64,000 bases of DNA from Echinarachnius parma. Lineage: Eukaryota; Echinodermata; Echinoidea; Clypeasteroida; Echinarachniidae. The notes under the pieces are model-generated. The model worked only from the letters and a program-made list of their open reading frames with translations, was not told the origin of the DNA and did no database searches. Location of the stretch: assembly GCA_037951105.1 (NCBI GenBank), contig JBAMJV010008120.1, positions 1 through 64,000 of the forward strand, given 5' to 3'. Below are positions 21,634 to 58,489 of the stretch, piece after piece. The position numbers and the translations under genes are program-made. The first letter of the stretch is position 1, and every line of letters starts with the position of its first letter.

Positions 21634-22985
21634 CTTTTTTCATCTAAGCTTTAAGAGGCTTCTGCTGGTATTTGGCAAAGAAAAAAAAAATTATTATTTG
21701 GGTTAAAGATAAACAAGAGCAAGATCGTATTAAACAAAATTTCACTTGCCTGAATGGGCAATCATTATCCTAGAGACTTTTTATTATCCATTTGTTTGGT
21801 TTGGGACTTTAGGTATATATACAAACTTGTTAGAAATCATGATTTTACTTGCTTGGGAAAGAAAAAGTTAATTTTTGGTTTCAAGCAGGAAATTACAAAT
21901 CATCCAGCTCTGATAGAGGGGGAACAGACATGCATAGATTATTGAAGAAATGTTTATTTAGCACTGTACACGTAAATACATACACTACACTACACTCGAC
22001 CAAACAGTATGAAAATACACCTGCGTAGTGCGTACCAATGCATAATGCATACCATTTTTTACATTTTTTGTTGTGGGAACGACTGGATAGCGCGCAACGA
22101 ACGGTCACATATCATTATTATCGGGAATTTGGCAGAAAGTTTTGCAACGATTACTGAAAAACGGATTAAATGCAACAAAATAAGCGTTAAAAAGACGCTA
22201 ACCATGCAGTGGGGCATCTTGGTGAGTTTATGTATCATAGATTTCTTAAATTTACGTTGAAACGTTGCAAATTACTGCAAAATATGCATATTAATAACGG
22301 GTTATGTAGATGTAGTTCAAAATTACTTCCATTCCGAATTCCTTAAAACAACCTGTACAAGTGGATAACGCTGTTAATGGTGGGCGTGAATTATAGCGTC
22401 TAGCGTTAGAAGGGCCGACAGTCAAATATTGCAATTAAATGTAAAAACGCTAGATATTATGTCGATCTAGTATGCACTCGGTCTCAGCTCAAAATCAAAA
22501 TCAAATCAAACACCATCAAAATATCATCCTAAATTAAATACATGCAATGTCAATATCATTAGTTTATATATGACACATTATTGTACATCCTGCATGACCC
22601 TTTCAAATGAATTATATAGTTTCTCTTCATTTTAATAACTGAAACGAGACTAGATCATCTTTACCGTCACAAGTCTCACCCCATAGAGTATCCGAATTCG
22701 CACACTGTCACAAATTAATACATGCGGGACTGGCCCACATTCGCATCGAAATCAGAGAAGCTCTTACTCTTAGTTCCTTTGATTTCATTCTCTTTACTAA
22801 ATCTGGCATAGTATGATTTAGGTCCTGACAATAATCGATCAGATTGGCGTTGATCTAGTGTTCAGGAGGTTAAATATATCTTACCGATGGTTCCAAATGA
22901 CAATTTTGCTCTCCAACTTTCTTCAATGTTTACCGACTACACAAACAAAACAACAACAGGACTCGGGGGCGCGGCCTCGAGCTCA

Positions 22986-23465: not shown

Positions 23466-25496
23466 AAAGGTACCCTCAAGTTTTGTGTGTTTTTTTTCTA
23501 ATGAGAGCTGAAAACCAACCCAGGCCTGGCATGCAGCTGTTTGTTAAAAATGCTGAGAAGCTCTATACTCTATACTCTTGATAGAAACCATTACATATAG
23601 GACTATTTGTTTACAGCTTCAATTACATACGAAATGTCTCCTGCATTTTATTGATTTGCCGCTTTGGGGGGAATATGTTTTTGCATACGATTTTTAATTT
23701 TGTTTATTATAGACCAAATACAAAAGTCTGGTTTCAGGATTTTGTCAAAAATCGAACCGCACTGTTAATGTTTATACCCACTGAAATAGTACATCGATCA
23801 TTACATAAAAATCATAAAATTATAAAATTCTATGTCAGTGAATATAATGATATTTTATCATTCATGGAAACATTATCTTTACTTTTCAAACTGAGCCAAT
23901 GTCTGCAATGAAACATGTATGTACGAGCTACCGAGCTACCGACAAGAATAATATTTCTTTATCGGGCAACAATATTTTCTACTAGGCCCTTATTAGGGGA
24001 ACATTTTTGGCAAATTGTCACTCATCACTGTGGAATCATGTTTTTATTTAGGCGGTGCTGGCCCAGAGAGTCTACTATATGTGCTGGCCTAGTCTATAAT
24101 TGTATAGCCTCGGCCGGACCTCGGACACGGACACGGACACCCCCCCCCCCCCCGCCCCCCGCCCCCGCCCCCTCCCCATCCCCCTAATATAATATTGATG
24201 TCCGTCCATAGCTGCTGTAGTTGTTGTTGTTTTGTTTGTGGGGTCGGGATCGGAACCACTGAAATGAAAATTCCTCTTTTGAAAATATTGGTAAGATATT
24301 CAACTTTCATGAATGTATCGAATAATAGCTTGATTGATTGCTGACAATATAACAATGACCTAACTGAACTCAATTGGCAGAAAAATGGAAATTTATCGAG
24401 GATCTCAGATCTGATGTGATGGTAACCCAGTCCCACATGTATTAATGTATGTGAGTGTACGAATTCGGATACGTATTTGAGTGAGATTTTCGACATGTTT
24501 TTGTATCGAATTCTGGCATGAATAATGGCTTTAAACTTATGACAATTTTTCAACAGCGTGATACAGCATTTCTCACGCAGGAACTGATACTAAAATTTAA
24601 TGGATTTTAAGTTTTAATGCATTTTTGAGGGGCATTATGGAATATGGGGACGGGACATTTTCTGAGAATTCTGACTTCTGTGGTGTGACTGTGAGTGTGA
24701 TGTGAGTGAATAATCATCGTCATTGACACAGACTGACGGCAGTCGCGTAGAACATAAACATGCACATGCTCACTCTAGATGAGTTATTTGTGTTTGTGTT
24801 TAGAATTCACACCAGTGTTGCCAACTCCTCTGAACAGAAACTCGCTGCAGCACCTGCCCATGGAAAAACAAGCGACGCGACTTCAAATTCAATCATGCAA
24901 AAACAAGCGGACTCAGAAAAATCACCTTGCAAGTGACGGAATATCATTGATCGACGACGATGCAGAATACATATATGTCTCTTTATCCACACGCACTCTT
25001 AAAATCGTTGTGCGAGCGCGGAAATTACACGTCCCTGTCCACGCCATTCAGTTATTATTTCATAAAACAAAACAAGGAACACCTGAAAACAAGCCCAATA
25101 TAATTATAAGGCAACCCATGACTACAAAATAGCTGTGTTTGTGGCCGCAGCATGTTTTCATGGTGTCTTACAATACAGTACTAAAAATGCCCCCAAATTT
25201 ACTCTAAACAGAGCTAGGCAGAAAAGGGTCCTTTTAAACGGTCCCCCCAAAAAAATTGGGCTAGGGTCTCTGGAGATTACATCTTAAACATAATCAAGCA
25301 GTCCTGAATGGGTTAAAATACTGGACCATTCAATTGCAAATAATCCCAAATGAAATGAAACAATCCTGAAATAGAATGAAGAAAAAAAAAGAACTTCTAA
25401 TTTCTACTTTGCTCTCCTGTATATCTTTTCAGGTGGATTTGTGACTTGGCAAAGAACTAACGGCAGCTTCAAGAAGCTTGAATCTATAACTAAGAG

Positions 25497-28400
25497 ATGG
25501 ATCAACACTATCGAGATGCCAGTCACCAGGGATACTATGGCGCAGAGAGAGAGTCAGACGATCGCAAACGCCAACAGCAACTGTTGCTGCAGCAGCAGCA
25601 GCACTTGCAGCATGTGCCCCACTATCCCCACCAGCTTGGATACCACCCTGCTCTTCTGTCCGCCGCGCAGCAGGTTCCCTTCATCTTGAGCCAGTCGGAC
25701 CAGCTCAGGAATCGTGGAGATTATAGCAGCAGCGATCAACCGAGTCAGGCTCTCCTGCAGTCATCCTTCCAAGGTACGTAAACACTAACCCATTAACCCT
25801 CTGTGTACTGCAAGTCAAGTCACAACACCCCTAAAAATCAGATCTATTGATTTGTACTTAATGCACACAATAGATAAGCTGCGCTATACAAATGTTCATA
25901 TTATTATTATTATTATTATTAGTGGGTTTAACAAACTTCATTGGCACTTGACTCCCACCAAGCTTTTTATTTTATTGAAGATGAATAGAGAGGGGGGGGG
26001 GGGGGGGGGGGGTTAAGCTATTCAGGTGAACTTGTCAAAGTTACAGGAACAAATTGATTCTTCCGATTTAATTAGGTTGCAATTTAGGCCATGCAGAGAT
26101 TTGTTTTCATTTGATAATTTTAATTTAATTGGATTCTGGCTAGTCTCTGATAAAGGAATGCAAAGCAAAAACAATATAATATTGAAAGAAATGAAAGGAA
26201 AATATATACATGTCTACATTTACATTTTAAAATGCTACAATTGTTAATGTTTTAAGTATCAACAAAACATTTGTTATAATGTGAAAACGAATAATTATTC
26301 TAAACAGGTACTGGTCCAGTGGCTGGAGGCTCAAGCATCCCTCTGCACACATCCAGTGAGCAGACTCTTAGCTTCGCCCCAAGGGATCCCCACCACCAAC
26401 CACCGCACCTGCAGCAGCCCTCAAGCCAGGCACCCACCTTCCCTCATCACATCAGTGTGTCCAGGTCAGGGCAGACAGCTACCACTACTCTCGTAGAATT
26501 GTCCCAAAGCAGTCAGAGCAATGCTCAAAATGCTGGTGCTAATGTCATGGAACAAATGTCCAGAGGGCCACAATCAACTCTAAGTTCTGCTGATAACCCA
26601 CAGATGAACTCATCAAAGATCAATGCCTGCTACCCAATCCATCCCGTCACTCAGAAGGATGCCTTCGTTGGGGACTCCAGGACAAGCCCGGAAGATGTTA
26701 CATGTAATAATGTACAGTCGCAACATACAGTTCAAAGCGACGCTTTAGTTCAGAAAGACGTTTTAGTGCAGAAGGATGCTTTATCTCAAAAGGATGCCTT
26801 AAATCAGAAGCGTATGTTACTTCATAAGAGCATTGTAGCAGGAACGTTGGTCAATTTGACTGACTCCCGGACAAGCCCCCAAAATGTTACATGTGACAGT
26901 ATACCATCAGGACAAAGTGTGCGACATCTGTCAAAAAAGCATGTGCTTACAGAGTCTGGACTCTCTCAACTGAACAGCTCTCTCCATCCTGCGTTGATTC
27001 CAAAGAAGAAGACGTCTAAATCGAAAGACAGCAAGTCGAGAAAGAAGACAAAGCCGGAGGATGAACTGCCAGAGTTTCTTGCCTTCAGGTATGAAGCAGG
27101 TGACAAGGAGAACATTCATGGAGTTGAGGCCAAGAGAACAGTGGAGGAGGGGACTGTCTTTGGACCCTACGATGGCAATCTTGTGGATGAGGCTGGTGGG
27201 GCACGTAAAGAATCAACGTGGGAGGTATGTGTGAAGGTTCATTGCCAAACATATTTATGTATTGTAGACCAAAACTGTTTCCAAGAACAATGTTGCATCT
27301 TTATATGCTTAATTTTACATAACTTAAATATGTATGTCTTTAGTTTGACATACTTAACAAAAGCTCTAGGAGTCTAAGTATGAAGGAGAAAGTTATCTCT
27401 ATATTTTGAAGTCAAGGAGAATGGCAGAATCTTTTAGACCTTCTAATCACTCAGTTTGTTAATGTTTTGAACTGATTCAACCACAGCTGTCTTGGAGGGA
27501 AGGTGTTCCTTTAATGCCAGGAAGAAGGGTTCCCCAAAAACATGATGTCTGAGGCAGGCCATTAACATTATTGAATCCTTTTCACAGCTCTCTTTCTGTT
27601 AAGCAAGGTGACTCCATCACAGCTGTTTAAAGAAAGTCTCCAACAATTGAGAATACAAATGTTCTTACAATCTGCTTTATTATATTCTCCACCACAGCTC
27701 TGTCTTAGAGGGATGGTGTTCCTGTACGTTGATGGCAGGAGGAAGGGTTCCCCCAACATGATGTCTTTTATCCGCTGTGCCCGAACCCAGGCAGAGCAGA
27801 ACCTTGAGGCCTTCCAGACACTGGGTGACATCTACTTCCGGGTCACGAAGGAAATTGCACCGGGTACAGAGCTGCGGGTGTTCTACAGTGAGGCTTACAG
27901 GGAACTTATAGGATTCAAGCTGGGGCTGAATGACCTCAACTATGATGAAGGTATTGTTATTGTGTATTTTTTATTATCTCAAAAGTTATTGTTTGGTTTC
28001 TGGGTGACATCTACTTCCGGGATATTTGGGTTCTCGGTTCCAAATTATTATTTTTTTTTTTTTGTCCCAGGCATCCACTGAGTTACCTTGTTTGCTTCAA
28101 TCGTGGGTGGAAAGAGCTGAACAAAAATGAACATACTTTGAATAGATCTGCTAAAAGCTAATCTTATCCATCTCCTTATGCAAGAATGATAGTCCAGCAG
28201 AAAGAGAGAAAACATTAATTTTTAAATGTTTATATTACTGTTAAATGTAAAAAAGGAATATCAAGACATATTCGGGTAACTGAGGCAAATGTAAGGGGTG
28301 CAGATTAAAAGAAGAACATTTGATATGTTTTTTTTGTGTGTGTCTCTAATTATCTTACAATCTTATTTGCTTGTTTTGGTTACAGAGACAGACTCCTTCC

Positions 28401-30010
28401 AGTGCACCAAGTGCAAGAGGAAGTTCTCATCGGCAAAAGCTGCAGTGCGACATCACAAGATAGATCATGAGGCAAACGGGGTCAATGAACTTTGTCCTGT
28501 GGTAACCTGGAAGCTAAGGGGGTCAAAATCAGAGAACACCAAGTTAAGGAAAGCAGAGAAGACTAAAAAAATAAGAACAGAGAACGCAAGAGTGGTAAAA
28601 GCAGAGCTTGACAAGTGCATCAGTGAGAAAATAGATGGGAAGAACGATATGGCAGGGGATTCCGAGGAAGAGGAGTTGGGTGATCAGGATTCCCCCAAAT
28701 GGCACTTTGTCTGTACGGTTTGCGGGAAGGCATTTCCGTCAGAAGGCAGGTTGGAAGCGCACGCGATGTTCCACGAGACTTCGCAGGAACAAGTGTGTCC
28801 TGTTTGCGGGGTTCGGCAGAAAAATGCCCATGCACTCACAAAGCACATGGACGAGCACAGTGTTCGGGCGAATACCTGCGCAAGGTGCGGAAAGGAGTTT
28901 AAGAAGCGGAGTAACCTCTACAGGCACGAACGAGTCATACACGGCATATCCGTTGAGAGAAAGCGATTCACCTGCAAATTCTGTGGCAGCAAGTTTGCTA
29001 AAAAGCGAGAGTGCTCGAATCATGAAAAGACTCACAGTGAGTCCGAAGACAATGTAAAAAATGAGGAAGAAAATGTTGAAATACAAACTGGTGTAAAGGG
29101 AGCATCAGAAGAGACTAATATTAATGTTAATGCAGAGGTTAATGTCAGCATACTTGCCAATGAGGAAAATACTAATGAAATGAAAGACAAAGTGCAGGAC
29201 AAAGTTACTAAGAAATCCACAGGAAGTCGTATCACAGCGCCACGTAAACCTCGAAGACAAATTGAGCCACCACCGCCACCAGAACACAGAGATATGTTGG
29301 GCAAGTCTGCAGACTATTACATCAAGCCCAAACCCTACAAGTGCCGCTACTGCCCCAAGCGCTACGCAGACAAACCGCGCGTCATGACGCACGAGAAGGA
29401 AAAGCACGAGGGAACGGGGACGTTCAAGTGCACGGACTGCACAAGGGTCTTTGTGAACAAGACACGGTTCATCAACCACCTCAAGGACCACGAGCGCAAC
29501 TGGCTCTACCGCTGCTCGCTCTGTTCCCGATCCTTCGCATCGGAAAGCGCCCTCAACAACCACCAGGGCGAACACACGGGGTTGAAGCCATTCAAATGCG
29601 ACGTGTGCGGGCGGGGCTTCCGGGTGAAGAAGGCTGTGTACCAGCACAAGACGCGGATGCACCGCACGCGCCCCATGCGTTTCTTTTGCCCAGTTTGCAA
29701 CAAGGGGTTTCCCGACCGCGGCGGACTGAAGAAGCACGAGTACCGACACAAGGGAATCCGACCCTTCGTGTGCCTGACGTGCGGTAAGGGGTTCACGGTG
29801 AAACACAGCCTGCAGATACACGTCCGAAACGCGCATGGAGAGACGAAGCCCTTCACCTGCCCCATCTGCCACAAGACATTCAGTGTTAATCACAGCTTCA
29901 CTGGACACATGTTCAGGCACCAACTGAAGGGTGAGGGTGTAGAACAGGCCGGGACAAATGTGGTTCAACAACCAGGAGAGTCGGATCCAAGTGCTCTGCA
30001 AGCAATGTAA
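25497..30010 (+). CDS. PRDM-type PR/SET domain zinc finger protein (gene B)
   Basis: Coding exons 25497-25773, 26308-27224, 27698-27950 and 28386-30010 join in frame to 1023 residues. A 5' UTR segment starts at 25433 after TATCTTTTCAG. The start MDQHYRDASHQGYYG is shared with gene A. Domains: Gln-rich N-terminus (1-92), variable linker with a DALxQKD-type repeat, lysine patch KKKTSKSKDSKSRKK, PR/SET at about 345-480 and 12 C2H2 fingers in exon 4. An ATTAAA at 30262 could serve polyadenylation. Introns are short (534, 473 and 435 bp), unlike gene A. Role inferred from family: nuclear sequence-specific chromatin regulator. PR domains vary in methyltransferase activity and activity cannot be judged here. 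Confidence 0.87.
25992..26012 (+). repeat. poly-G tract (21 G) in gene B intron 1
   Basis: Uninterrupted G homopolymer, following a short (ATT)n microsatellite at about 25902-25922. Confidence 0.95.
26308..27224 (+). CDS. gene B linker and first half of PR/SET domain (exon 2)
   Basis: Acceptor TAAACAG, donor GGGAG|GTATGT. Compared with gene A it carries about 74 extra residues, including two DSRTSP blocks and a run of related heptads (VQKDVLVQKDALSQKDAL). The extension looks like internal duplication. Confidence 0.88.
27487..27552 (+). pseudogene. relic copy of the gene B PR exon
   Basis: After CACAG comes CTGTCTTGGAGGGAAGGTG, then TTCCTTTAATGCCAGG and AACATGATGTCT, matching the start of exon 3 with a stop and indels. 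It lies about 210 bp before the functional exon, equivalent to the relic in gene A. Confidence 0.7.
27698..27950 (+). CDS. gene B PR/SET exon (253 bp)
   Basis: Acceptor CACCACAG, donor GAAG|GTATTG. It encodes LCLRGMVFLYVDGRRKG, AEQNLEAFQTLGDIYFRV, then PGTELRVFYSEAYREL. Confidence 0.9.
28386..30010 (+). CDS. gene B zinc-finger exon (12 C2H2 fingers)
   Basis: Acceptor GGTTACAG. The finger order matches gene A: one isolated finger, a spacer, four fingers, a ~75-residue acidic spacer that includes a PPPPPEH stretch, then seven fingers entered by GKSADYYIKPKPYKC. The stop is TAA at 30008-30010. Confidence 0.9.
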
Positions 30011-36184: not shown

Positions 36185-39100
36185 ATGACGAATGCAATGA
36201 AGGGTAAGAGTAAAAAACTTATTCAGAAGAACAGCAGTGGAGTTAACTGTGATCAGCGCCGTACGTAGTACGGCTACGTACGGCGCCTGGTTAGGTTACA
36301 GTGGAGTGAGTGTGACTGTGAGTTGTAAACTTTTGCCTGGCCTGCGCCAGTGCACAGCCACAGGGGCGGTTATTCTGTGCAGATCTGAGGGTGCATTAGA
36401 TCGACAAATCTATCGCTTTCATGGCCGCCTTTTTGACATTATTATTGTCATGTTCACTGTCGGCATTAGCTAGAATGCCGACAGTGAACATGACAATAAT
36501 AATGTCAAAAAGGCCATGAAAGCGATAGATTTGTCGATCTAACTGGGTGCTAACTCAGGTGAGCGCTACGCTACAGCGTAGCGCTCAGGGTCGGGCTCAT
36601 AGTGCCCCCGATTTTTTGCGGTAATGTGCACAATAAGTGTGCTTAAAATTATAGATATGATACGGTACTTACCACCGTGTAGATGATACATATGTTATGC
36701 AACTATGGGGTGGATCAGAATGATGATTTTTCGCTCCATTTCGCATCAAAATGAGTGATTTATGCACATCATCGACTTCTATCTGTGTTGTATCGCGACT
36801 TCTGAACGATCGATTACCGTACGACCACTAACGCGCGAGTCAGATCTGCCATCTATTCGGCGGGCGCGGTACATGAATGGAGACCGTACCCGCGCGTTCG
36901 CCTGATCATCGCTCGTTCCTAAGTCGCGATACAACACAGATAGAAGTGGAGGAGGTGCATAAATCACTCATTTTGATGCGGAATGGAGCGAAAAATCATC
37001 ATTCTGATCCACCCCATAGTTGCATAACATATGTATCATCTACACGGTGGTAAGTACCGTATCATATCTATAATTTTAAGCACACTTATTGTGCACATTA
37101 CCGCAAAAAATCGGGGGCACTATGAGCCCGACCCTGAGCGGCGTAGCGCTCACCTGAGTTAACTGGGTGCATGCACTGCGCAGCTTGAACTGGAAGTGGA
37201 AGTGCTGAGTAGATTAGTAGATTCTTCTACTTTCTTCTTCTTCTTCTTCTTGATACTGCAAACAAACTCTGCATGATGCGGATATACAGTTGCAGGCACT
37301 TGATGGGTTTAGGTGTGCGCACCTAATTGGGGAGCCCGTGATTTCCACCATCGTGGTAATCAACTCGGTCACATTCTTATCAGTTTCTGACAGTTTTATC
37401 ACTACTGTCAACAATCCCACGCTGTGTTAACTGCCCCTCGACTCTCGAGGACGAGGCCCAGTGCTATCACAGAGAGAGGGGCTAGTGATAAGAAAGTGCC
37501 AACCCTGATAAAAATCTACTGGATGCAGGCTTGAGAGCTCAGATATCACACCGCAGTTCAGGCCCTCAAAGTGAGGTTTTCACCTAACAGCAAAATCTCG
37601 TCATGAGGCCCAGCACCTTATTTGCCTTTGATGCAGTTGTGTTTATGTGGTCTGCCCAGTTCAGTTTTGAGTTAAGCTCTACCCCAAGGTATGAGTGTTT
37701 CGCTATTGAGTGAAGGGATGTTCCATTCATAGAGTATTGGGTTTCTATAGCTCTCCGTTTGTGCATTATGTGCATGACATGACACTTATCATTCAATGTT
37801 AAATTTCATTTGCCACTTGGCCTCCCAGTCGCACAAACTGTTAATGTCCTGTTGTAGTGTCGCACTGTCAGCATCGGATTTGATCTCTCGGTATATAATG
37901 CAGTCGTCCGCGAACAGTCGCACTTGGGAGTCGACTCCCTTCAGTAAATCATTAATGTATAAAATAAATAGTAGTGGACCCAAAACAGTACCCTGTGGAA
38001 CTCCTGATTGTACGTCCACATGTTCGGATATAGCCCCTTCCAGTACGACAGATTGCGTTCTTGTCAAAAAATTATTTATCCAGGTGTGTATAGATCCTGT
38101 TATCCCTGCTTGGTTCAGCTTCAAAAGAAGCCTCTGGTGGGGGACTGTATCAAATGTGATGACGACGTTTGCTTGTCCTTGACAATCTAAGATTTCGGCA
38201 AGTTGTGTTTCGCATGATCTCCCTTTCCTGAAGCCATGTTGTTCTCCATTGAGGACGAAATATGGACGTTATACTTTTTTAGGCTCAGCCGTAGATCTAG
38301 ATCGAGGTTTCTTATTTAGTAGAATATATTTCTTCTTCCAAGAGAAAAGTGCATTCTTATGATAATGTCTGAACATTATTAAAATTTAAATAAGGATTCG
38401 ACTCATCTCACATGAATTTATCTTGGTTGGACTTAACCTACAGCACGGCGCCTGACATACTCGCATTCAAAATCCTTGAATGTCACTGGTAGGATGATAC
38501 AAAACCCCCAAAATGAACAAATGATAATGGGTTTGAACTTACCTAATTTCAAATTTGTGGACTGCTAGTTGATAGCTCCTTCAAAATACTGTACATGATT
38601 CAATTAATAAATACCCAAATTTCGCAAAATAATCCTGAATTTGGATGGACCAGAAAAAACGATACAATCCGCGACCACGACAGTGTTGGAGTCATATATT
38701 ATGCATACAGAATTGACCTTTCTATCTAGGGGCCATCTACAAAGTATGTACGCAATTTTTTGTTCGAAATTGACCTCCCCTCCCCCCCTGTACGCACTTT
38801 TTTTTGCATGTGGTTGAATGCAGCGTACGCATCAGCGTGAACCCCCTCTTGTGCGTACATAATTTGTAGATGGCCCCCTAGCGCACGAGTGATCAGCTTT
38901 CTGGGTCATCATTGCAGCAATCAGTTTGGAATATACATTAATACACGCATCAACTCCAGAAATCATCAATTTTGGGTAAGTTATCCTTCTTTTAAGCAAA
39001 TTATATTCAATGTGCCAATAGTTCATTAACTAAAGGTATAGTTTAGAGCAAAAAAAAAAAAAATCAAACAATTTTGTTGGTAAAGGCGACTTTCAAAGTT

Positions 39101-42100
39101 TTGATCTTGTCGCACATCACCAACAAGCTTTTAAAGCACGAAGCGTTACAGCGGTGTGCTGTTGCACACCCGCTGATTACAGTTAGGTTGGACTCAGTCT
39201 TTCGAATTGGATTTGTAGCAAATCAAGTTTCTAAATAAATTTCTTCAATTACAATTTACATCTCAACTATTTTTTTTCTTAGAAATATTTTCCATCTTAG
39301 AAAAAATACAATCGATGCAATATGGATTCTTTAGACTGCATGTTTCCCTTTAACTTCCAGAACATTATTCGACTCGTCTCATGATTTGTAAGACTAAGAC
39401 TAGAGCAACACAAACAGTTTGTAATCTATTTTCTTGAATTTCATCTCATCCCTTCTCATTGATTTTATTAATTTTCTTTACCTTTCCTATTATTAGACTG
39501 GACATGAGATGACCAGTCAATGAGATATATATGGACTGGCTAGACGGCATGTTCTCCCTGGCTTCTAGAACCTGGTTCGACTCATCTCACAGGAATTACT
39601 AGATATAATCAACACAAAAAGGTTTCAATTTCTTTAATTTCATTGTTGATTTCTTGTTTGATAGAAATAATTTTTTTAATCTTTCCTTTATTCTAGACTG
39701 GACATCAGATTACCAGTCAATGATAAAGACCAGCTTGACTTCATGTTCCCCCTGGCTTTCAGAACCTGAATCGACTTATCTCACATAAATTAATCTAGTA
39801 GTAGGGGGATAACCCTTCTTGTCGTTTAATTGTAATAATTTTCTTTACCTTTCCTTTTTTCTAGACTGGATGTCGGACGACCAGTCGTTGAGATATGGAC
39901 CAGCTAGACTGCATATTCCCCCTGGCTTCCAGAAAGTGAATCGACTTATCTCACACAAATTAATCTAGTAGTAGGGGGACAACCCTTCTTGTCGTTTAAT
40001 TGTAATAATTTTCTTTACCCCTCCTTTTTTCTAGACTGGATGTCGGACGACCAGTCGATGAGATATGGACCAGCTAGACTGCATATACCCCCTGGCTTCC
40101 AGAACGTGAATCGACTTATCTCACACAAATCAATCTGGTACTAGTAGTAGAGGGACATAAGTTCTTAATCAACCCTAATTCTTGATGTTTAAAAAAATTG
40201 TCTTTCCCTTTCGTTTTTTTTAGACTGGATGTCGGACGACCAGTCGATGAGATTTGGACCAGTTAGGCTTTCTGTTCCACCTGGCTTCCAAAACCTGGTT
40301 CGACTCATCTCACATGAAGTTATGAGAGAGCAACCCAAGGACAACATTAAATTCATCGCAGCCTTTCTGCAAGATGTGCTGGCCATCAGAGAAAGTATGT
40401 CATTCTAATTATCCTACCTTATTTACTTGTTTTATTGACCATGTTTAAATTGAAAATATTGTTCTGTTTTTGCTTGTTTTGAGTAAAGGTTTTGTGTTTG
40501 TTTGAATGTTTATTAAAATGACTTTACCGTCAGTGTGTTAAATTTGTTGTTAGATCGTCAATGTAATGAACTATTTCTTTTAGAGCTATATTTGTTCCTA
40601 AATTGTCAATGTAAAGACAATGTCGTTTTTGTGCTAATTTTGATGATGCTTTGTAATCTTGAACATGCAGGTAGGCTACAGGTGATGATCCGGAGCTCCA
40701 GGGAAAGCTGATAGGGCGAGTACAGTCCTACGATACGCTCAGATAACAAAAGAGAATATTTCAGTTAGTCATTAAATTGTCGATGTTAACCTGTTGACTA
40801 CGGGAACCAGGTGGGTTGTGTACAAATTCTATAGAGGTTCCAGAATCTCGAATGGAACGGGTTAAGACTATTTCTTTGGTGTTATATCTGTTAATAAAAT
40901 AAATTGACAAGTTGTAAAGACTATTTTTTTTGGTGCTAATAATGATGTTTCTTTGTAATCTTTGACTTATAGGTACAGGTGATGATCCGGTGCTACAGGG
41001 GGAGCTGATAGGGCGAGTACAGGCCCAGTATGCACAGATCAAGCAAGACAGAGGGGGCCCCGAACCACCAGTGACGTATCCTCCTGTGGACAGAGCCGCC
41101 GATCAAGGGGACTGCGTTCCCGTTGTGGACAAAGATGGTAAGGATAAGGATAATTCACTTCTGTGCGTGTATGAGTGTGCGAGTGTGTTCCTGTAAGGAC
41201 CTTCAATCAGGGATACACACCGGTAAACACAGAATGGCTAGATGCAGGGTAGAAAATACACGGGGCTGAGTGCGACTTTGCCCCCTAATTTTTCAAATAG
41301 CCCCCTGAAATCAGTAGGTAGCCCCTAAAATTAGGTATTATGTGTAATATTTTGTGAAATCCATCAGATTAAAAAAGTAGCCTGCTAAAATAAAAAAATA
41401 ATTCTTTCCTTGGGTCTATGGACAGAGCTGCGCTTTGGGGGACTGTATCTCGGTTGTGGACAAAGATGATGATATGTCAAGGGGAACTTACTTGTTTTTT
41501 TTTATAAGGATGTGTGTTTGGATACAAAATTAAACCATCCTTTACAGAGTTTGATTTTTCAAGTGTACTTTTCAAACTGGTCATTTAATTAAAGATGAAT
41601 TACAGTTTTGGGAAAGTTACAGAAAACATTTATATTGGCCAAAATAATTGATCAATATTGTTGAATAAGTAGCTAAAAAGGGCTTGTGCGGTAAAATCCG
41701 AACCCAAGCATCGTTACATGCAGAAATATCGGGAACAAATCCAATGGCTGCCCGTGAAGTCTATAAATCCACCGCCCGTTCGCATCTGTCCGCGCTGCTA
41801 GCGCTGGGCTGGCGATATCGACAAGCCAGCATATGGGCCGCATACCGGAAAGCATATGCAGACCACGTGGACTTTTGCACGTAGCGTATGCGTAATTCCG
41901 TGTTGGCGATCGATTTACTGTAAATCAGTTTTATAATTTTGCAAATATATCCATTAGTAGGCGGTTTCCTGGCCAAATTTGTAATCGCATATTAGTAAAA
42001 TTATATTCTTTCACATGGTTAGTAATAAGAGCGTACATTTCATTTGTTTGTGTGTGGGGCGTTTCCCACTACTGTCATTTCCCTTTAATTTATAGCTTTA

Positions 42101-43541
42101 AATATGAAAATCTGTTCATATCTTCTGAAGATTACATGGATATTAACCTAGGTACAGCTAAACCTGTCTTAGTGGCCACCTGCCTGTAGTAGCCACCAAA
42201 TGCGATCCCCCACAGAGCAAAATCAACGCTATAGAACTGTCTATAGAGGTCACCTGTCTACAGTGGCCATATTTCTTGTTTCCCTTTGATGGTGTCAATA
42301 CTCAGGTTTTGTTATTATCTCTTTTATTCCCTGAATTCATTCATCAAATCTTCCTCTGTTTTAATATCATTTTCAAATACGTTTTCAGTTTTACTTTTGT
42401 GTATAATTACCATCCCCTAGTGCCAGTCGAGACGATAATGGAGGATAGTTTGGCGGTAATGGTGGACATGGAGGAGATGGAGACACAATCTGAGGTACCG
42501 GCTGAAACAGGTGCAGAACCGGCACCACAGGTCGTTGATTCCGAGGTATTGGCTGAAACAGGTGCAGAACCGGCACCACAGGTCGTTGATTCCGAGGTAC
42601 CGGCTGAAACAGGTGCAGAACCGGCACCACAGGTCGTTGATTCCGAGGTACCGGCTGAAACAGTTGCAGAAACGGCACCACAGGTCGTCGAATCAGAGGT
42701 ACCGGCTGAAACAGGTGCAGAACCGGCACCACAGGTCATCGAATCCGAGGTACCGGCTGAAACAGGTGCAGAACCGGCACCACAGGTCGTTGACTCCGAG
42801 GTACCGGCTGAAACAGTGGCAGAACCGGCACCACAGGTCGTCGAATCAGAGGTACCGGCTGAAACAGGTGCAGAACCGGCACCACAGGTCATTGAATCCG
42901 AGGTACCGGCTGAAACAGTTGCAGAACCGGCACCACAGGTCGTCGAATCCAAGGTACCGGCTGAAACAGGTGCAGAACCGGCACCACAGGTCGTTGATTC
43001 CGAGGTACCGGCTGAAACAGTGGCAGAAACGGCACCACAGGTCGTCGAATCAGAGGTACCGGCTGAAACAGGTGCAGAACCGGCACCACAGGTCATCGAA
43101 TCCGAGGTACCGGCTGAAACAGGTGCAGAACCGGCACCACAGGTCGTTGATTCCGAGGTACCGGCTGAAACAGTGGCAGAACCGGCACCACAGGTCGTCG
43201 AATCAGAGGTACCGGCTGAAACAGGTGCAGAACCGGCACCACAGGTCATCGAATCCGAGGTACCGGCTGAAACAGTTGCAGAACCGGCACCACAGGTCGT
43301 CGAATCCAAGGTACCGGCTGAAACAGGTGCAGAACCGGCACCACAGGTCCTCGAATCAGAGGTACCAGCTGAAACAGGTGCAGAACCGGCACCACAGGTC
43401 CTCGAATCAGAGGTACCGGCTCAAACAGGTGCAGAACCGGCTGAACCCATGGATGAAGGTATTACGGAACCAGCTGAAACGTCAAAGGCACCGCCGGATA
43501 CAGAAGAGAACCCAACTGATGAACAGGAATCTACTGTATAG
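36185..43541 (+). CDS. CABYR/SPA17-like protein with RIIa domain and acidic 17-residue repeats
   Basis: Proposed exons: 36185-36203 (MTNAMK), 40224-40394, 40973-41137 and 42421-43541. All four have GT/AG borders and join in frame to 491 residues. The first exon is the weakest call; translation could instead start at the ATG at 40229. Residues ~24-62 (SVPPGFQNLVRLISHEVMRE and following, ending FLQDVLAIRE) are an RIIa dimerisation/docking fold as in SPA17, CABYR and the PKA regulatory subunit; such domains bind AKAP helices, typically in the sperm flagellum. Residues ~142-460 are 18 and a partial unit of SEVPAETGAEPAPQVVD-type repeats, recalling the PxxP-rich acidic tail of CABYR. An AATAAA lies at 43806. 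A flagellar scaffold role is inferred from the domain. Confidence 0.75.
36396..36542. repeat. near-perfect 147-bp palindrome
   Basis: Arms of about 70 bp starting TTAGATCGACAAATC and ending GATTTGTCGATCTAA, centred on AGCTAG near 36469. One 2-bp difference is visible. It directly abuts the left target duplication of the next element. Confidence 0.85.
36542..37170. mobile_element. Mutator-like fold-back element with 9-bp target duplication
   Basis: The element proper is 36551-37161. ACTGGGTGC at 36542-36550 and 37162-37170 flanks TAACTCAGGTGAGCGCTACG and its inverse CGTAGCGCTCACCTGAGTTA. Inverted arms extend about 245 bp (to ~36800 and from ~36917). A 10-bp insert with its own hairpin is present in the left arm. 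A 9-bp duplication and long inverted ends are typical of MULEs. It lies in intron 1 of the RIIa gene. Confidence 0.8.
37216..37242 (+). repeat. (TTC)n microsatellite
   Basis: Short run of TTC units. Confidence 0.85.
37584..38269 (-). pseudogene. non-LTR retrotransposon reverse transcriptase fragment
   Basis: On the minus strand: HGFRKGRSCETQL-like, FDTVPHQRLL, SGVPQGTVLGPLLFILYIND and LFADDCIIY, the standard order of RT motifs in jockey/CR1-type LINEs, followed by a YLGVELNSKLNWADH block. The frame changes near 37790 and both ends are missing, so this is a dead fragment in intron 1 of the RIIa gene. The clade cannot be settled by eye. Confidence 0.85.
38727..38880. mobile_element. MITE with TIR TAGGGGCCATCTACAAA
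   Basis: TAGGGGCCATCTACAAAGTA with TGTACGCA is inverted at the right end as TGCGTACA and TTTGTAGATGGCCCCCTA. The element is 154 bp. Confidence 0.8.
39865..39968 (+). pseudogene. partial RIIa exon copy with open frame (copy 4)
   Basis: The acceptor TTTTCTAG is retained. In the phase of the real exon it reads DWMSDDQSLRYGPARLHIPP, then GFQKVNRLISHKLI, and stops at TAG 39966-39968. The second helix of the RIIa domain is absent. It could be a dead copy or an alternative terminal exon. Confidence 0.75.
40035..40144 (+). pseudogene. partial RIIa exon copy with open frame (copy 5)
   Basis: Acceptor TTTTCTAG retained. It reads DWMSDDQSMRYGPARLHIPP, then GFQNVNRLISHKSIWY, stopping at TAG 40142-40144. 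It is the closest to the functional exon 80 bp downstream. Confidence 0.75.
40224..40394 (+). CDS. RIIa domain exon
   Basis: Acceptor TTTTTTTAG, donor GAGAAA|GTATGT. It contains the alternative start ATG at 40229 and the whole RIIa fold. Confidence 0.85.
40672..40748 (+). pseudogene. relic copy of RIIa gene exon 3 (5' part)
   Basis: GGCTACAG then GTGATGATCCGGAGCTCCAG, GAAAGCTGATAGGGCGAGTACAG, matching 40979-41023, after which the frame breaks with a stop. Confidence 0.75.
40788..40866. repeat. dispersed repeat copy (GACTACGGGAACC family)
   Basis: Matches the units at 30594-30732: GTTGACTACGGGAACCAGGTG, GTGTACAAATTCTAT, CAGAATCTCGAA, AACGGGTTAA. Confidence 0.65.
40973..41137 (+). CDS. RIIa gene exon 3 (linker)
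   Basis: Encodes DDPVLQGELIGRVQAQYAQI and a proline/aspartate-rich segment; donor AAGATG|GTAAGG. Two in-frame acceptors exist (AG at 40972 and AG at 40978), so two isoforms differing by two residues are possible. Confidence 0.75.
41413..41470 (+). pseudogene. relic copy of RIIa gene exon 3 (3' part)
   Basis: TGGACAGAGCTGCG, GGGGACTGTATCTCGGTTG and TGGACAAAGATG match the end of the exon at 41084-41137. The donor GT is replaced by AT. Confidence 0.7.
41668..42085 (+). repeat. ~400-bp dispersed repeat, copy 2
   Basis: An inverted match to 23055-23465 (AAAAAGGGCTTGTG, TGCAGAAATATCGG, GCTAGCGCTGGGCTGG, AGGCGGTTTCCTGGCCAA, GGGGCGTTTCCCACTACTGTC). Confidence 0.75.
42153..42310. mobile_element. MITE, TACAGTCAAACC family, copy C
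   Basis: TACAGCTAAACCTGTC, TTAGTGGCCACCTGCC, CTATAGAGGTCACCTGTCTA and a degraded right end; relative of 4336-4498. It lies just before the repeat exon. Confidence 0.65.
42421..43541 (+). CDS. RIIa gene repeat exon
   Basis: Acceptor CATCCCCTAG. After VETIMEDSLAVMVDMEE come 18 complete 51-bp units and a partial one from 42489, then PMDEGITEP and an acidic tail ending ESTV. The units differ at few positions and in fixed combinations. Two other frames of the same DNA (one plus, one minus) are also open across the array. These are by-products of a 51-bp period with no stop in three frames. Confidence 0.85.
42489..43445 (+). repeat. 51-bp coding minisatellite with higher-order structure
   Basis: Units alternate ETGAEPAPQVVD, ETVAEPAPQVVE, ETGAEPAPQVIE and ETVAETAPQVVE. 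Units 4-10 and 11-17 have the same order of variants, so a 357-bp block was duplicated. Confidence 0.9.
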
Positions 43542-50746: not shown

Positions 50747-50896
50747 CCTTAAATCCTCTCGAGTCTTGATTCAGTTGATTATTATACAAATTCCAAATTG
50801 GCATGACAATTTCAAATTTGTCGAATTGAAGTGTTCTTTTATTTTTTACAGATTTAAACAGAATGGATTGAAGTTAATTTACACACCCCTGCAAAG

Positions 50897-51675
50897 TGTA
50901 GCCGTTTTTGTGCGGTTGCTGAGGCCGCCCGCCGTGGCTATATAAAAATCATAGATATCTTCATAATCATCAACATCGTGCACTCACTCGGTCACTCGAT
51001 AATTATACATAAACGTAACTCACCTAAAAACCGGCTCCTCCGGAGCTCCCGTCTTAACTCGCCCGTCCTCTCGCTCGGCGGACATTAACTTTCACTTCAA
51101 ACTGTTGGAATCCCCGAGATTCCCAATTCCGACATCCTCTTCGGCTCCGCGTGGAGCCATGCTTCTCTCTCGTGTGCCCGACAAACACACAGTTTACGGT
51201 ACAAACAAGACACACAACGTGAAACACATAACACTTAGGTCCTATCCGAAAACCTACTCAAATGGCTTCCCAAAGCCTTCACCCTTTTACCCGTTCGTTC
51301 CCCGTCAATCCGTCTGGAATCCCCGATCCCACACATGCCCAGCCCCAAACCCGTGCCGGAGCGCTACGGCGCCACACCTGCGGCGCACGTCCGCTCCCTC
51401 CGCACATCTCGGATCGACTGGCAACGAAACATGGCGTCTTTTCCCGAGGTGCATCTAGTTCGTGCTTGCGAGCCCAACCAGTTTGAATCGCCCGCGCTTG
51501 CGTCCTGTATTCCCAATACATGACGCCCGCACGGGGGGGACAAAGGTCGGAATCGCCGCTCGAGAGCACCCATTGTCTACCGCCGCTGCGGATATACGGT
51601 CGGGTAGACGCGAGAAAACCGCCGGTCAAGCGCCATTTAACAGGCATAATACCCGTAAAATCAGTGACGGCTACA
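50897..51675 (-). repeat. LTR (3' LTR of the minus-strand element)
   Basis: Compared with the other LTR I noticed one difference (T at 50911, G at 57605). Open frames here are duplicated in the other LTR and are not genes. Confidence 0.9.
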
Positions 51676-51684
51676 TTCCCCCTC
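51676..51684 (-). other. polypurine tract of the LTR element
   Basis: GAGGGGGAA on the minus strand, directly before the TG of the downstream LTR. Confidence 0.65.
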
Positions 51685-52762
51685 GTTTAATAGAGCTGAG
51701 TTCCAGCATGGAAATCAGCTCAAACGGAAGGACTAGCCGCACTGATCTTACGGTATCCATGCCAGCAATTGATTTCCCGAACCCTCAATTGCTGCCAGGA
51801 ACTGCCGAACCTGAAAGGGCCGTGCGAGTGCTGAATTGAACACTCGTTAAGGCCACGACCTAGTTAGTTACTCAATGTGATGAGAGGACCGCAATTTCCG
51901 AAGAGCAATTGCGTGAAAACTCATCAACGGGCTCACCTTTTAAAGGAACCCCTACGAGCCAGGAGTTGTCGTAGTTGACAATATCCTGGAAGGAGTAAAG
52001 GCTCCTGTAAGGATTCGGGAGGACTTCTTAAAGGTACATGTTTTTGTAACCTGAAGATCCTGCCGCTCCGTTTTGCTAATATATTTAGATAGGGATCGGG
52101 TCCCCTATCAACGAGGTCTCGGTCTCTTAGGGGCATAGAGGGGTCCGCACACCTCTGGCTCCTGAAAAGACCACCTGCAAAAACACTTAAAAAACAATAT
52201 GGAGACATGACAGGAAGGCGTGTTGAATTCCAGTGAATTTATTCTGGAATCCAAAACAAATCAACAGAAATTCTTCCCGTCAATCTCTAAAAATTCAAGT
52301 GAGGAAAGAAAAGGCAAAACAAATCCTTCCTTTCCACACCGGAAACCAATTACACGTAGAACGTTTCAGCCTATCACTTATCCTACTGCTTAGCCAAGAT
52401 TCTCCAGAATAATCAAAGTATTCCTGTAGCGAGACTTAAGCGAGCAATAGACCAAACAAACATAATCCAAAGTAGAACGACCAGCATCCTTAATCATCAT
52501 AACTACTACTCCTCAATTTGTATTTGTCGAATAATACAAATGAGAAGCACTCATTAATAATAAATTCTAAATAATCGGCAGACTGCCGGGACTATACACG
52601 CTCAATCGTGGCCAAAGGAGGGTTTCTTCACTGAAGCCTGGTTGCCATTGAGGACAACCCGAGTCCTGTGCCTACAGCCGGTTGAGGAGCCTGTACACCC
52701 CAGCAACTGCGTGTGTTCTTCAGAGCGCAGACAAACTCGAATACTCTGGCGGAAACCCGTCA

Positions 52763-52876
52763 TTCGGGGACAGTATTTTTATCCCCGATGAAACGGCCAG
52801 TTCGGGGACAGTATTTTTATCCCCGATAAAACGACCAGTTCGGGGACAGTATTTGTATCCCCGATGAAACGGCCAG
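52763..52876 (+). repeat. 38-bp tandem repeat, three units
   Basis: Units start TTCGGGGACAGTATTTxTAT at 52763, 52801 and 52839. Each has an inner TCGGGGA/TCCCCGA hairpin and ends GAAACGGCCAG or a variant. Confidence 0.92.
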
Positions 52877-55800
52877 TTGATGCACCGAAGTTGTCCGCTC
52901 CATTAATACAAAATAATTTAAAAGGAACACAACAATTTAAAAAATGGCTTAACCGTCCATTCCCCCTCCTCAAAGAAAAACTCTTTGCCGAGTGAGAATT
53001 TCAGGCAGCCCAGGTTCCTTTTAAATTCCGAACCTGATCTGCTTACAGGGGTGTGTAACTTAATTCTGCCTTAAATCTTTTTACACCAAACATCACCCCT
53101 GTATTCCAAAATATCACTAGAGAGTTTACCCGAAATATTGACTCTCTGTGTAAATAAATTTAACACAAACGGCGCGATTGGGATAAGAAATATTTTCCTT
53201 CCTTATCCAATTATTTTCAAATACCAAAATATATATCGACTAATACCATAAGAAAGGACTTATTTATTGCCTCTCCTACTAACAAATTTCTATCAAAACA
53301 AAGTGAACACTATCTTAAAGTTCACTTACAAAATTAATCCCCTTTTAAAGAAGACCTTTTTCCCTAAACATTTCCACAAAATGAGAAATGCCTCCCCATA
53401 AATCAATTTAAACAAATGTCCCAACAATTCTTTATACCCCAAATTAAGTCCATTAATGAAGGGGGAACATTTGTCTTCTCAACACCAAATTAATATCAGG
53501 AGGAATTTGTCTCCAGAATCAACAAATGTCATCCATCGTCAAAGGGAGTTATTGACCATTATTAATCAAATATTTAACAAAAAGTCATCCCGACTTATGA
53601 AAGAATTTTATGTTTAAAACAAATCAAACCAAAGGGAGAATCATATCCCGACATCAGACATAAAATCTCCCGAATGTCGCACTCATTGAAAGGAATACAA
53701 TAAAGTTCATCCGGAGCAATAAACCGAGGAATCTTCTCCAGGAAGCTATTCACAGTGTATATTTTTCTTTTATTAAATATACAAATATGTGCACCTTTGC
53801 CGTCAATGCGATGGCAGTGTCAAAAATAAGAAGTCACTGCATTTTCAAACTAAAGACTCCACTGGCAACCTTTTAAATTTTAAATCAACACGAGGCCTCC
53901 TATGATGCAACCTTATGTCCAGTGTATAGTCAGCGATATCCAAAATATACAAATTAAGATAAAGGCTCACCTCACCTAGCCGAATGAATCGTGAACATCT
54001 CGGTAGCTCGTCTACTCCTGATCCGTCCTTATACGGGTGGATACCGCAGTGAAGCGTGACCGATGACACTCCACGCACATGATACAATGTATATCATGGC
54101 CGTCATAACAAGTGTTCGTCTGTCGATTGCTTCCCTGTAGTATAGTCCATGGTCAGGACCTAGTGTAGCGCGATCCGGTGTATCGATAGCGATAGTGTGG
54201 GGCTGTTGGTCATGAGTTAGTAATCCCGAAACCGACGATAATTAAGAATGGGCCTTCTGCGTGGCTGGCTGTCCTGTGATGAACTGCTGCAGTAGCGAAT
54301 CCCATTCAGGTGTGTTCCGCGACCTCTGAAGTTATGTATTAACTATGGACGCAAAATCACTCCTACGTAGCGAAGCGCTTTATTTCCATATCGAGAATAA
54401 AGTAATAAACCCTACAAAATATTATCTTTTTGCTGAGCGGCACAGCCTCATATCAGTCCATAAACATATTCTGCGGGTGTACACGGCGTATTATCAGACG
54501 TTAACGGCATCCAGAGTAATTTCAAAACCTGCTGCCCGGGTGCTCCTTATACTAAAGTGTTTCCAAGATTAGCAAAGTCGAACAATCGCCCATTACTAAA
54601 AAGGCATTACTTAATGAAGCGCGATCCTTGGCATTGGGCGTCCTCCAAACCATGATGCAGTCTTCGCTAATAACACAATAATCTTCGCTATTTATCTTCA
54701 CTTTAACTCACAAGTCCAGACTCCTAGAACAACTACACAGTGAGGAGCTAAACCTCTCGAATTTGTCTAAGAGAACGAGAACTCCTTAAATTAAATATGA
54801 ACCAGCTCAACACCTTGCGACCCTATCAACTAAGAATGAACAATAAATTCCCATTAATCGGTCCGCTGGTCGGACAAGTCCGACCTGTGTGCATTCAGGC
54901 TGATCATAGTTATTGGATTGAAGTCGCTCCCGTATCCTGGCCGCTTGCATGTGCCCCGGTAGTGGTACCGGAAATGACGCAAAGACCTCAGACCATGTGA
55001 ACCCGTCGAGTGGGAATCACTCGGTCTACTAGAGTCTGTTTCAATCCCTGTGTGAAGTTATCGCAATTGTATCCAACTTTGAGGCATCGAGCCGAAAAAT
55101 AACCGCGTCCTAACTTATAACAACTTATTAATTCAATAAAGAAACATTACCATAAATTGTTATGGCAATGAGAGTCCTTTCTCTCTAACACCATAACAAA
55201 ATCAAAGGATTCGCTTCCGTTGGTTACACCACTCACAAGGACGTTTCTATCTCCAGTGCACACTAACAACAGAGTCCTGTTGCCCTAACGAAAACCGTAG
55301 GTCCAGCGATGCACCAATCCTCTAGCCGTGAATCCACGAAGTACACAATACCCTATACTATTAACTCTCCGCGAAACAAATGCTACCTATCTCAACTGGA
55401 GTGAACGCTAAATTACTGTGAGCTATTCAAACTATGAATCCACCATAAATAATTCAACTTAATATTCTACCGCGAACTACACATGACGAATTCACTCCAG
55501 CGAAGATAAACTAAATTAAAAGTATTGCCGCCGCGAGGACTCAATGACGAACTCTGGAAACTTTCCTGGACAGAGAAGAAACTTTAGAAAATAGGGTTAA
55601 ACAAATGGCATCAAAAATATCTAGCAGAGAACCAAATTTTCAAAATAAATTTCCCCAGCCAAATACTTTCAACCCACTTTCCTCCCCTTTCCAAAAATTT
55701 ATTTTATAAGAGCTTCAAGTTTTCCTCAAGATTCCCCCCAATAAATTCAAATCCTTCAAAAGCTCTATCAATCCAAAAAAATGACCCAAAGCACGCCCAA

Positions 55801-57572
55801 TTTCGACGTGCCCTAATTTTGAATTCCACCGGTGTGCTTAAAAAACACCAATGACTTTCTATTACTAATTACAAGAAATCCAAAATTAATTCACAAAAAA
55901 AACGCCCAATTTTCTAATGCACTACATAAAATTAATTCACTAACGGCTATCTGCCCTTCAAAAACAATCTAAGGGAGAGAATGCTGAATTCACCCAGTGT
56001 CTACTGGTCGTCCCGTCGGGTGGACTTCCGTCAATGTATAGAACACTAAAGGCAAACTATACAAACTATACCCCTAAATAAATTCACGGCTACTTCGCCT
56101 TTATAACTATACTTGTTTACTTGGAGCGCAGGCCCCAGTAAACATCCACAATTCAATAATTTTCCCGATGCCTTTTATAATAAAAAATTAAGGCATAAAG
56201 AACCCCCGTATATTTACAACATTTCACCGATTTCAACACGATTGTTGTGTTGAAACAATATAAGCATTATATTAATAATCCATATAATGCTCCTCGCACG
56301 AATTTCACAAAGTTCATGCGAGTGATACTAACATTTTATATTTATAAACATAGTCCATGTGAGGCTTCTCACACAAATTTAACGGAATTCATGCGAGTTA
56401 CACTTATATTTACAAACCTCGCATGAATATTTAAGTTCAACTATTTCAGAGAGTTAATCCATATACATCCACGCAACTATCACACACACATGCATACCTG
56501 GTCTCAAACCATTCCCCTCTTGGACACACCGGTCCTCAAGCTAGTTTTCTTGACCTCACAAACCAACACTGACACATCATGATCACACACATGATTATCA
56601 CATTCACAACCCAACACACAAATCTCACAATAACCCGTCACCTACAATCAACAATCAATACTGATCACACACAAAACAATGATCAACTTCCAACACGATT
56701 CCCTACGGGTGGGCAGATGCATTGTCAAATCATCATACTATTTATAAAACATCGCATCAATCCTGCAAACTACACATCAGTGACATCACTTTCACGATAT
56801 GTACTACAACACTCGCTCCAAAATAATCAATTCTCATCAGAATCGAACAAAATACCAGTCTACTTCGACCTTACCTTACAAAACTATCAAAATCTCAGGA
56901 GAAAACATCGACTCTGAGGCATAACAATAACACATACGCTGCACGCAATACAATCTCTCCAACAACATGCATGCATCCGCATCGCGAAAACAAATCATGT
57001 ACAAAGCCAATACAAAACGCCCAGCGACCAAACTCTCACCCGAAGTATTGCGCAATCGTTACCCCCCAAACCAAAGTTGTCTACCCGACCGACTGCATCA
57101 AAAAACAACAATTTACGCCTTTCTCTTTTATAACCCTATATTCACGAAACCCCCAAAACAATAGCCTGCATTGACCCCCGTGCAAAAAGCCACGTTGCCC
57201 AATTTTCACACATTAAATCAATGCCTCAAATCGGCGCTCGCCTCGTGAGCCCTACTAAAACAACAACACGAAATTTACAAACCGAATCCACCGATGCAAT
57301 TGCATCGTATTAAATACCAAAAAAACCCCAATTTCTTTCCCAAAGTCCGCAAAAATCCCAAATAATCCACAAAAATCACTAATTTCACCAAACCAACGGG
57401 GCTTCCCGTACATAATAACAAAGTCCCCCATAACTTCGTAGCAATAAAAACTTGAATGCGATCCAGTGCGCTTTCCCGCACGCGCCACGTGCTTCCAAAA
57501 ATTAATAATTTCAATTTTCATCAATTTTCCAAATAAACACACCTTCCCCCCCATTCAATTTTTTTGTTCTTT

Positions 57573-57590
57573 CGTTTATCGCAGCGCCAA
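57573..57590 (-). other. primer-binding site of the LTR element
   Basis: TTGGCGCTGCGATAAACG on the minus strand; TGG is complementary to the CCA end of a tRNA. Which tRNA is not determined. Confidence 0.6.
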
Positions 57591-58369
57591 TGTAGCCGTT
57601 TTTGGGCGGTTGCTGAGGCCGCCCGCCGTGGCTATATAAAAATCATAGATATCTTCATAATCATCAACATCGTGCACTCACTCGGTCACTCGATAATTAT
57701 ACATAAACGTAACTCACCTAAAAACCGGCTCCTCCGGAGCTCCCGTCTTAACTCGCCCGTCCTCTCGCTCGGCGGACATTAACTTTCACTTCAAACTGTT
57801 GGAATCCCCGAGATTCCCAATTCCGACATCCTCTTCGGCTCCGCGTGGAGCCATGCTTCTCTCTCGTGTGCCCGACAAACACACAGTTTACGGTACAAAC
57901 AAGACACACAACGTGAAACACATAACACTTAGGTCCTATCCGAAAACCTACTCAAATGGCTTCCCAAAGCCTTCACCCTTTTACCCGTTCGTTCCCCGTC
58001 AATCCGTCTGGAATCCCCGATCCCACACATGCCCAGCCCCAAACCCGTGCCGGAGCGCTACGGCGCCACACCTGCGGCGCACGTCCGCTCCCTCCGCACA
58101 TCTCGGATCGACTGGCAACGAAACATGGCGTCTTTTCCCGAGGTGCATCTAGTTCGTGCTTGCGAGCCCAACCAGTTTGAATCGCCCGCGCTTGCGTCCT
58201 GTATTCCCAATACATGACGCCCGCACGGGGGGGACAAAGGTCGGAATCGCCGCTCGAGAGCACCCATTGTCTACCGCCGCTGCGGATATACGGTCGGGTA
58301 GACGCGAGAAAACCGCCGGTCAAGCGCCATTTAACAGGCATAATACCCGTAAAATCAGTGACGGCTACA
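57591..58369 (-). repeat. LTR (5' LTR of the minus-strand element)
   Basis: 779 bp, same length as its partner. A CTATATAAAAAT motif lies 34 bp from the plus-strand start. Confidence 0.9.
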
Positions 58370-58439
58370 AAAGCATGCATGCAAATATATAAATGCACAC
58401 AATGCATATACTATGCATGGTTTTTATCATGGATATAGT

Positions 58440-58488
58440 GTCATCCGGTGGAAGAGTGATAACCCCTTGGTCTCAGCCACCGGATGAC
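58440..58488. repeat. 12-bp stem hairpin
   Basis: GTCATCCGGTGG and CCACCGGATGAC separated by 25 bases, 70 bp beyond the LTR element. Confidence 0.7.
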
Positions 58489-58489
58489 T

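Follow-up and report, generated by a model that had tools for sequence, protein, structure and literature searches.

Truncated copies of an exon upstream of the intact exon in an Sp17-like gene, very probably a non-functional residue of local tandem duplication

One passage of PMC9013439, citing a 2002 study, states that ~10% of animal genes contain tandemly duplicated exons, and the same source gives 4,027 intronic targets as reported in human genes. Poison exons are a second point of reference, and those of splicing-factor genes are called ultra-conserved in the title of PMC12632421. A third is Sp17, to which an excerpt of PMC11276731 ascribes a calmodulin-binding C-terminus. Here we describe an array of truncated copies of a docking-domain exon located in intron 1 of an Sp17-like gene, and we consider it very likely that the array is a non-functional residue of local tandem duplication. 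Among the papers listed in literature searches, no title or abstract opening dealt with arrays of truncated RIIa or Sp17 exons; a published case is possible.

The window, i.e., the whole stretch of DNA that was analyzed, covers positions 1-64000 of contig C8107; the genome totals 1.2 Gb in 14,790 contigs. Its one cox1 match (contig C14600) translated well under the echinoderm code, with 18 ATA codons compatible with Ile at the positions inspected, 4 AGA read as Ser, 14 TGA read as Trp, and one informative AAA at an Asn position; this result indicates an echinoderm. Within it we built a frame-consistent gene model with four exons and 491 residues (Table 1). The product of exons 1 and 2 matched Sp17 structures (phmmer E value of 3e-6 for 7my4) and RII-alpha (E value of 0.003). 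The RIIa family (PF02197) reached 15.5 bits on the functional exon, below the Pfam curated cutoff of 22.4, and the Pfam RIIa region corresponds to residues 27-54 of the intact protein. The same genome contains a closer SPA17-like exon on contig C1403 (RIIa, 53.2 bits), with which the product of exons 1 and 2 shares 19 of 47 residues. We take the gene to be an Sp17-like paralogue. Its last exon contains a coding minisatellite of 18.7 copies of a 51-bp unit (42487-43441); this exon, which encodes mostly a tail of 17-residue repeats, had no Pfam match at an E value of <=1. This exon is equally long in C8107 and in a second contig, C552, despite surroundings rich in length differences, and the two versions differ at 2 positions in 1121 bp and at 1 amino acid. 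Proposed exon 1 and its donor are identical in C552; the gene could instead start at an ATG within exon 2. The exon 1 donor scored 8.8; this and all other splice-site scores given here were obtained with approximate weights, and only large differences between them are meaningful. Elsewhere in the window, two similar genes form an inverted pair (11481-21639 on the minus strand and 25375-30010 on the plus strand), whose reading frames are of PR/SET-like and C2H2 zinc-finger type and look PRDM-like by eye.

Table 1. Exons of the Sp17-like gene model and partial exon copies in the window
Feature	Coordinates	Strand	Remarks
Proposed exon 1	36185..36203	+	MTNAMK + G; donor AGGGTAAGA; predicted only
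29-bp scrap of exon 2	38394..38422	+	Profile score, 15.3 bits; absent from the original prediction
Exon 2 copy 1	39309..39381	+	Without acceptor, eroded; 27.9 bits; 74% over 38 nt versus other members
Exon 2 copy 2	39469..39600	+	Acceptor ATTATTAG; exon part from 39497; in-frame TGA at 39505-39507
Exon 2 copy 3	39667..39795	+	Acceptor; exon part from 39697; deletion shifts frame
Exon 2 copy 4	39835..39968	+	Acceptor TTTTTTCTAG; exon part from 39865; TAG at 39966-39968; 40-residue ORF
Exon 2 copy 5	40005..40144	+	Acceptor TTTTTTCTAG; exon part from 40035; TAG at 40142-40144; 42-residue ORF
Functional exon 2	40224..40394	+	171 bp; RIIa/Sp17-like docking domain; donor AAAGTATGT
Truncated copy of exon 3 5' part	40677..40755	+	77% over 79 nt to 40974-41052
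Exon 3	40973..41137	+	Frame-consistent gene model
Short copy of exon 3 3' part, downstream	41438..41468	+	84% over 31 nt to 41107-41137
Exon 4, last exon	42421..43541	+	Contains 51-bp coding minisatellite

The exon 2 repeat family has six members, i.e., five copies and exon 2 itself, at positions 39344, 39552, 39746, 39916, 40086, and 40275 (spacings of 208, 194, 170, 170, and 189, in order). A profile was built from the four clear copies plus exon 2, with 200 dinucleotide shuffles of the intron as a control. These five sequences scored 120 to 144 bits, values that are high by construction, and the best score in the 200 shuffled introns was 6.1. Weak antisense matches (3.6 to 8.3 bits) were also recorded at the copies and exon 2 because the start of the exon is palindromic. 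Each clear copy consists of an acceptor and about 100 bp from the exon's 5' end, followed by intron-like sequence. An acceptor followed by ACTGG marks the starts at 39497, 39697, 39865, and 40035, as it does the functional start at 40224, and exon 2's own donor is absent from every copy. No further place in the genome carried the array among the matches listed, and its interpretation as a spread mobile sequence was rejected for this reason. The repeat family and the comparison of the profile with shuffles confirm the original prediction that five partial RIIa exon copies precede the functional exon. Its further statements that the two nearest copies keep acceptor, phase, and frame and are then stopped by TAG also hold at 39865 and 40035, where splicing would yield open reading frames (ORFs) of 40 and 42 residues. 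The range that it gave for the array, 39335 to 40394, does hold copies, but the functional exon begins at 40224 and an acceptor is missing from the copy near 39335.

A palindrome, GACTGG(11 nt)CCAGTC, begins at the last base of the acceptor in the four acceptor-bearing copies and the exon (39496-39518, 39696-39718, 39864-39886, 40034-40056, and 40223-40245). Its arms are kept while the 11 intervening bases vary. Predicted folds paired the arms in five of the six stretches folded, the exception being the copy at 39865; the profile match of copy 1 begins further in than the palindrome. Such an element might fold into a hairpin across the splice site or serve as a hot spot for duplication.

The array was then compared between two contigs, using positions 1-81000 of C552 (141694 bases) and 1-104000 of C8107 (104433 bases). 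The contigs are collinear between base 577 of C8107, on one side, and base 1 of C552, on the other (C552 running from 50381 down to 1), so that both contig ends are reached; the overlap takes in 62 kb on the window side and about 50 kb on the C552 side, at identities of up to 99.5%. Because an overlap of this kind at contig ends matches the pattern of unmerged haplotypes, C552 is very probably the other haplotype of C8107. Parts of the overlap are only 90 to 92% identical, which would fit a recent segmental duplicate, and copies missing from such a duplicate would be uninformative about alleles. The collinear match extending to both contig ends makes that reading very unlikely, and even in a paralogue the gene model would be unchanged, with a frame open to the same end and the array missing.

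Only two strong profile matches were found in C552 1-81000, namely, one copy and the functional exon, with nothing else above 9 bits; C8107 has seven. Approximately 2.8 kb of the window, roughly 37150-39996, is without a counterpart in C552. The retained copy, the counterpart of copy 5, carries a 7-bp insertion that repeats CAGCTAG and shifts the frame, which would limit its product to 22 residues, short of the Pfam RIIa region. On its acceptor side this copy is closest to copy 4 (one mismatch in 77) and on its downstream side to copy 5, as if it were a product of unequal exchange; independent substitutions in the window copy might mimic this mixed resemblance. Copy 2 differs from exon 2 at 19 of 94 positions, with 3 gaps. 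Since copies such as this one are about 20% different from the exon and the introns of the two contigs are only 1 to 2% apart, the array probably predates the split of the two contigs, and C552 most likely carries a deletion of four copies.

Other structural differences between the two contigs were observed. A segment of about 10 kb (50896-61357), in two blocks, is without a counterpart in C552, and two reading frames in its first block, 51003-51458 and 57697-58152, have an identical 151-residue product. Intron 1 contains a reverse-transcriptase-like frame on the minus strand (37789-38268; LINE type by eye) that lies inside the portion absent from C552. It also contains two foldback (palindromic) elements, at 36396-36541 and 36551-37150. 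In the window the 600-bp foldback follows the small one, but in C552 it is located upstream; the two versions are about 90% identical and have different flanks, as if the same foldback family had been inserted independently on the two haplotypes.

The retained copy, together with its acceptor, differs between the contigs at 3 of 142 positions plus two indels, a divergence not distinguishable (P = 0.46) from that of introns 2 and 3 (4/266, 5/215, and 16/1282, plus indels; 1.25 to 2.3%). Exon 2 shows no differences in 171 positions; its contrast with the retained copy is not significant (P = 0.09; few changes). Exon 3, with 3 differences in 162 positions plus an indel, is as divergent as intron. 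In this comparison of two contigs of one species, with few changes, the copies were not conserved beyond the neutral expectation.

Comparisons among the copies in the window gave opposing results. Between copies 4 and 5, the exon part (4 differences in 98 positions) is no better conserved than the preceding 70 bp (3/70; P = 1.0), and it is better conserved than the downstream spacer (10/59 and 3 gaps; P = 0.009). Between copies 3 and 4, the contrast is the opposite, with 16 differences in 96 positions of the exon part and 3 in 63 of the downstream spacer. Because the downstream spacer of copy 5 is the flank of the functional exon, we read these patterns as suggesting a mosaic history of repeated exchange, and any single spacer is thus a poor yardstick.

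Relative to exon 2, the differences in the two nearest copies are spread over the three codon positions (6/5/8 and 7/4/8). In the comparison of synonymous and non-synonymous changes proposed with the original prediction, 8 of 14 and 10 of 16 codons changed relative to the exon are non-synonymous (6 synonymous in each copy), both below the random expectation of 0.77 (standard deviation, 0.11); between copies 4 and 5, the ratio is 3 non-synonymous to 1 synonymous, on small numbers. The low share versus exon 2 is expected, because the constrained functional lineage contributes part of the divergence. When 19 random substitutions were introduced (indels were not simulated), the frame remained open in 48 to 59% of simulations, and in introns 2 and 3 a stop was reached at a median of 10 codons and within 37 codons in 90% of draws. 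The open frames of the copies and the positions of their stops are not surprising.

Over its first 34 bp, exon 2 differs from copy 5 at 1 position and from copy 4 at 2, whereas the 30 bp upstream of this block and the 64 bp downstream are 17 to 28% different. For copy 5, Fisher's test gave P values of 0.0025 versus the part after the block and 0.02 versus the part before it, with a boundary chosen post hoc. This block is most simply explained by short-tract gene conversion involving the functional exon; constraint at the start of the exon could also account for it.

Joining exon 1 to each of the four acceptor-bearing copies would lead to a stop after 9, 36, 40, and 42 residues, and the exon's frame is held through the exon part only in copies 4 and 5. 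It was proposed that the products of these two copies act as micro-proteins that contain one RIIa helix and compete for dimerization. The 40- and 42-residue frames are indeed open if spliced from the proposed exon 1. Judged by the Sp17 alignments, however, they finish partway through the first-helix region, without the second helix; a docking fold requires both helices. Neither ORF matched any Pfam family at an E value of <=10, a weak argument given that the intact domain itself reaches only 15.5 bits, also below the cutoff. The codon-position pattern given above also argues against such micro-proteins, as does the C552 copy, whose 22 residues end before the RIIa region, so that a micro-protein would not be common to both contigs. 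We regard this proposal as extremely improbable, and the micro-proteins are not supported.

The strongest functional rival, possible but unlikely as judged from the sequence, is that the copies act as decoy 3' splice sites upstream of the functional acceptor (a poison extension) and that their number tunes the output of the gene. Without the exon's donor, the copies would serve mostly as alternative acceptors running to the donor at 40394. With use of the acceptors at 40035 and 39865, the TAG would lie about 250 and 430 nt before the junction, respectively, which would either send the transcript to degradation or make the copy an upstream ORF. The latter would follow if exon 1 is non-coding, since copies 4 and 5 hold the ATG of exon 2. 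Both acceptors are intact, with approximate scores (9.6 at 39865 and 8.5 at 40035) that come close to that of exon 2 (9.8), and one acceptor-bearing copy, the nearest, is common to both contigs with its acceptor intact (in C552, 9.6 for the copy and 11.0 for the functional exon, on the same approximate weights). Long pyrimidine tracts, AG-free over 49 to 60 nt, precede the sites at 39865, 40035, and the functional exon and both sites in C552. Copy 4 also contains a cryptic donor at 39936 that scores 5.7, compared with 6.7 for the real exon 2 donor, and a 71-bp frame-shifting cassette formed with it is conceivable. For the other acceptor-bearing copies, in contrast, the best GT donors score 1.4, 2.9, and 4.0, compared with 6.7 to 9.3 for the gene's three donors. 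The copies are incomplete and without donors, and mutually exclusive use as exons was rejected. Between 39497 and 40400 there is no AATAAA, and the one ATTAAA, at 40346, is inside exon 2.

The decoy interpretation is countered by the second contig, in which four of the five copies are missing and the retained copy diverges at an intron-like rate. In a further variant, a haplotype-variable ladder of decoy acceptors, each followed by a stop, would set the output of the gene, with one rung on one haplotype and up to four on the other. We consider this very improbable; were it true, the selected trait would be copy number and not sequence. Any true decoy use would make the locus a clear example of how the copy number of a minisatellite-like unit can tune splicing output. 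The suggestion in the original prediction that the copies act as poison exons is weakened by the missing copies, and the intact nearest acceptor on both contigs speaks for it. The alternative raised there, neutral debris from unequal crossing-over, is favored by the loss of copies in C552 and the intron-like divergence.

We therefore return to local tandem duplication without function as the preferred reading. In the founding duplication, one breakpoint would have been located tens of bases before the exon 2 acceptor and the other roughly 100 bp inside exon 2. When such a segment is duplicated head to tail, a truncated copy necessarily ends up upstream of the intact exon, and the stop would fall wherever the joined intron first supplies one. 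The unit would then have been multiplied and shuffled by unequal exchange, most recently as a 170-bp unit, while other copies were eroded by point mutations and indels; on the other haplotype, a deletion would have taken four of the five copies. We infer the breakpoints, the order of events, the haplotype status of C552, and the lack of a fitness effect of the copies. Exon 3 is also preceded by a truncated copy with the same geometry as the exon 2 copies (Table 1). Eight tandem arrays with a period of at least 50 bp and a score of at least 100 were found in the window, two of them in the Sp17-like gene. Along the overlap of the two contigs, nine length differences of >500 bp were counted in a manually selected chain of 20 alignment rows, which excluded rows inside the 51-bp repeat and at 1236-1915 (one), 9271-9802 (two), and 72864-73301 (one). 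Given these nine length differences and eight arrays, duplication and deletion events are commonplace here, and with local duplication so common in this sequence the array needs no function as an explanation. The array illustrates that in-frame partial exons with good acceptors can look functional in one sequence and be discounted once a second haplotype is compared.

Compared with the systems outlined above, the array shares with tandem exon duplication the presence of exon copies in tandem, in an adjoining intron of the same gene. It differs in that the copies are cut short, donor-less, and stop-containing and vary in number between contigs; none is a complete exon with both acceptor and donor, as in the usable, mutually exclusive kind. 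Like poison exons, the copies would include a stop codon in a transcript if their acceptors were used, although these products are hypothetical. In contrast to poison exons, most copies are not common to the two contigs and the exon's donor is missing. Finally, although the docking domain encoded here falls below the Pfam cutoff and the last exon is mostly a tail of 17-residue repeats, the gene resembles SPA17/Sp17 in that exons 1 and 2 match Sp17 structures.
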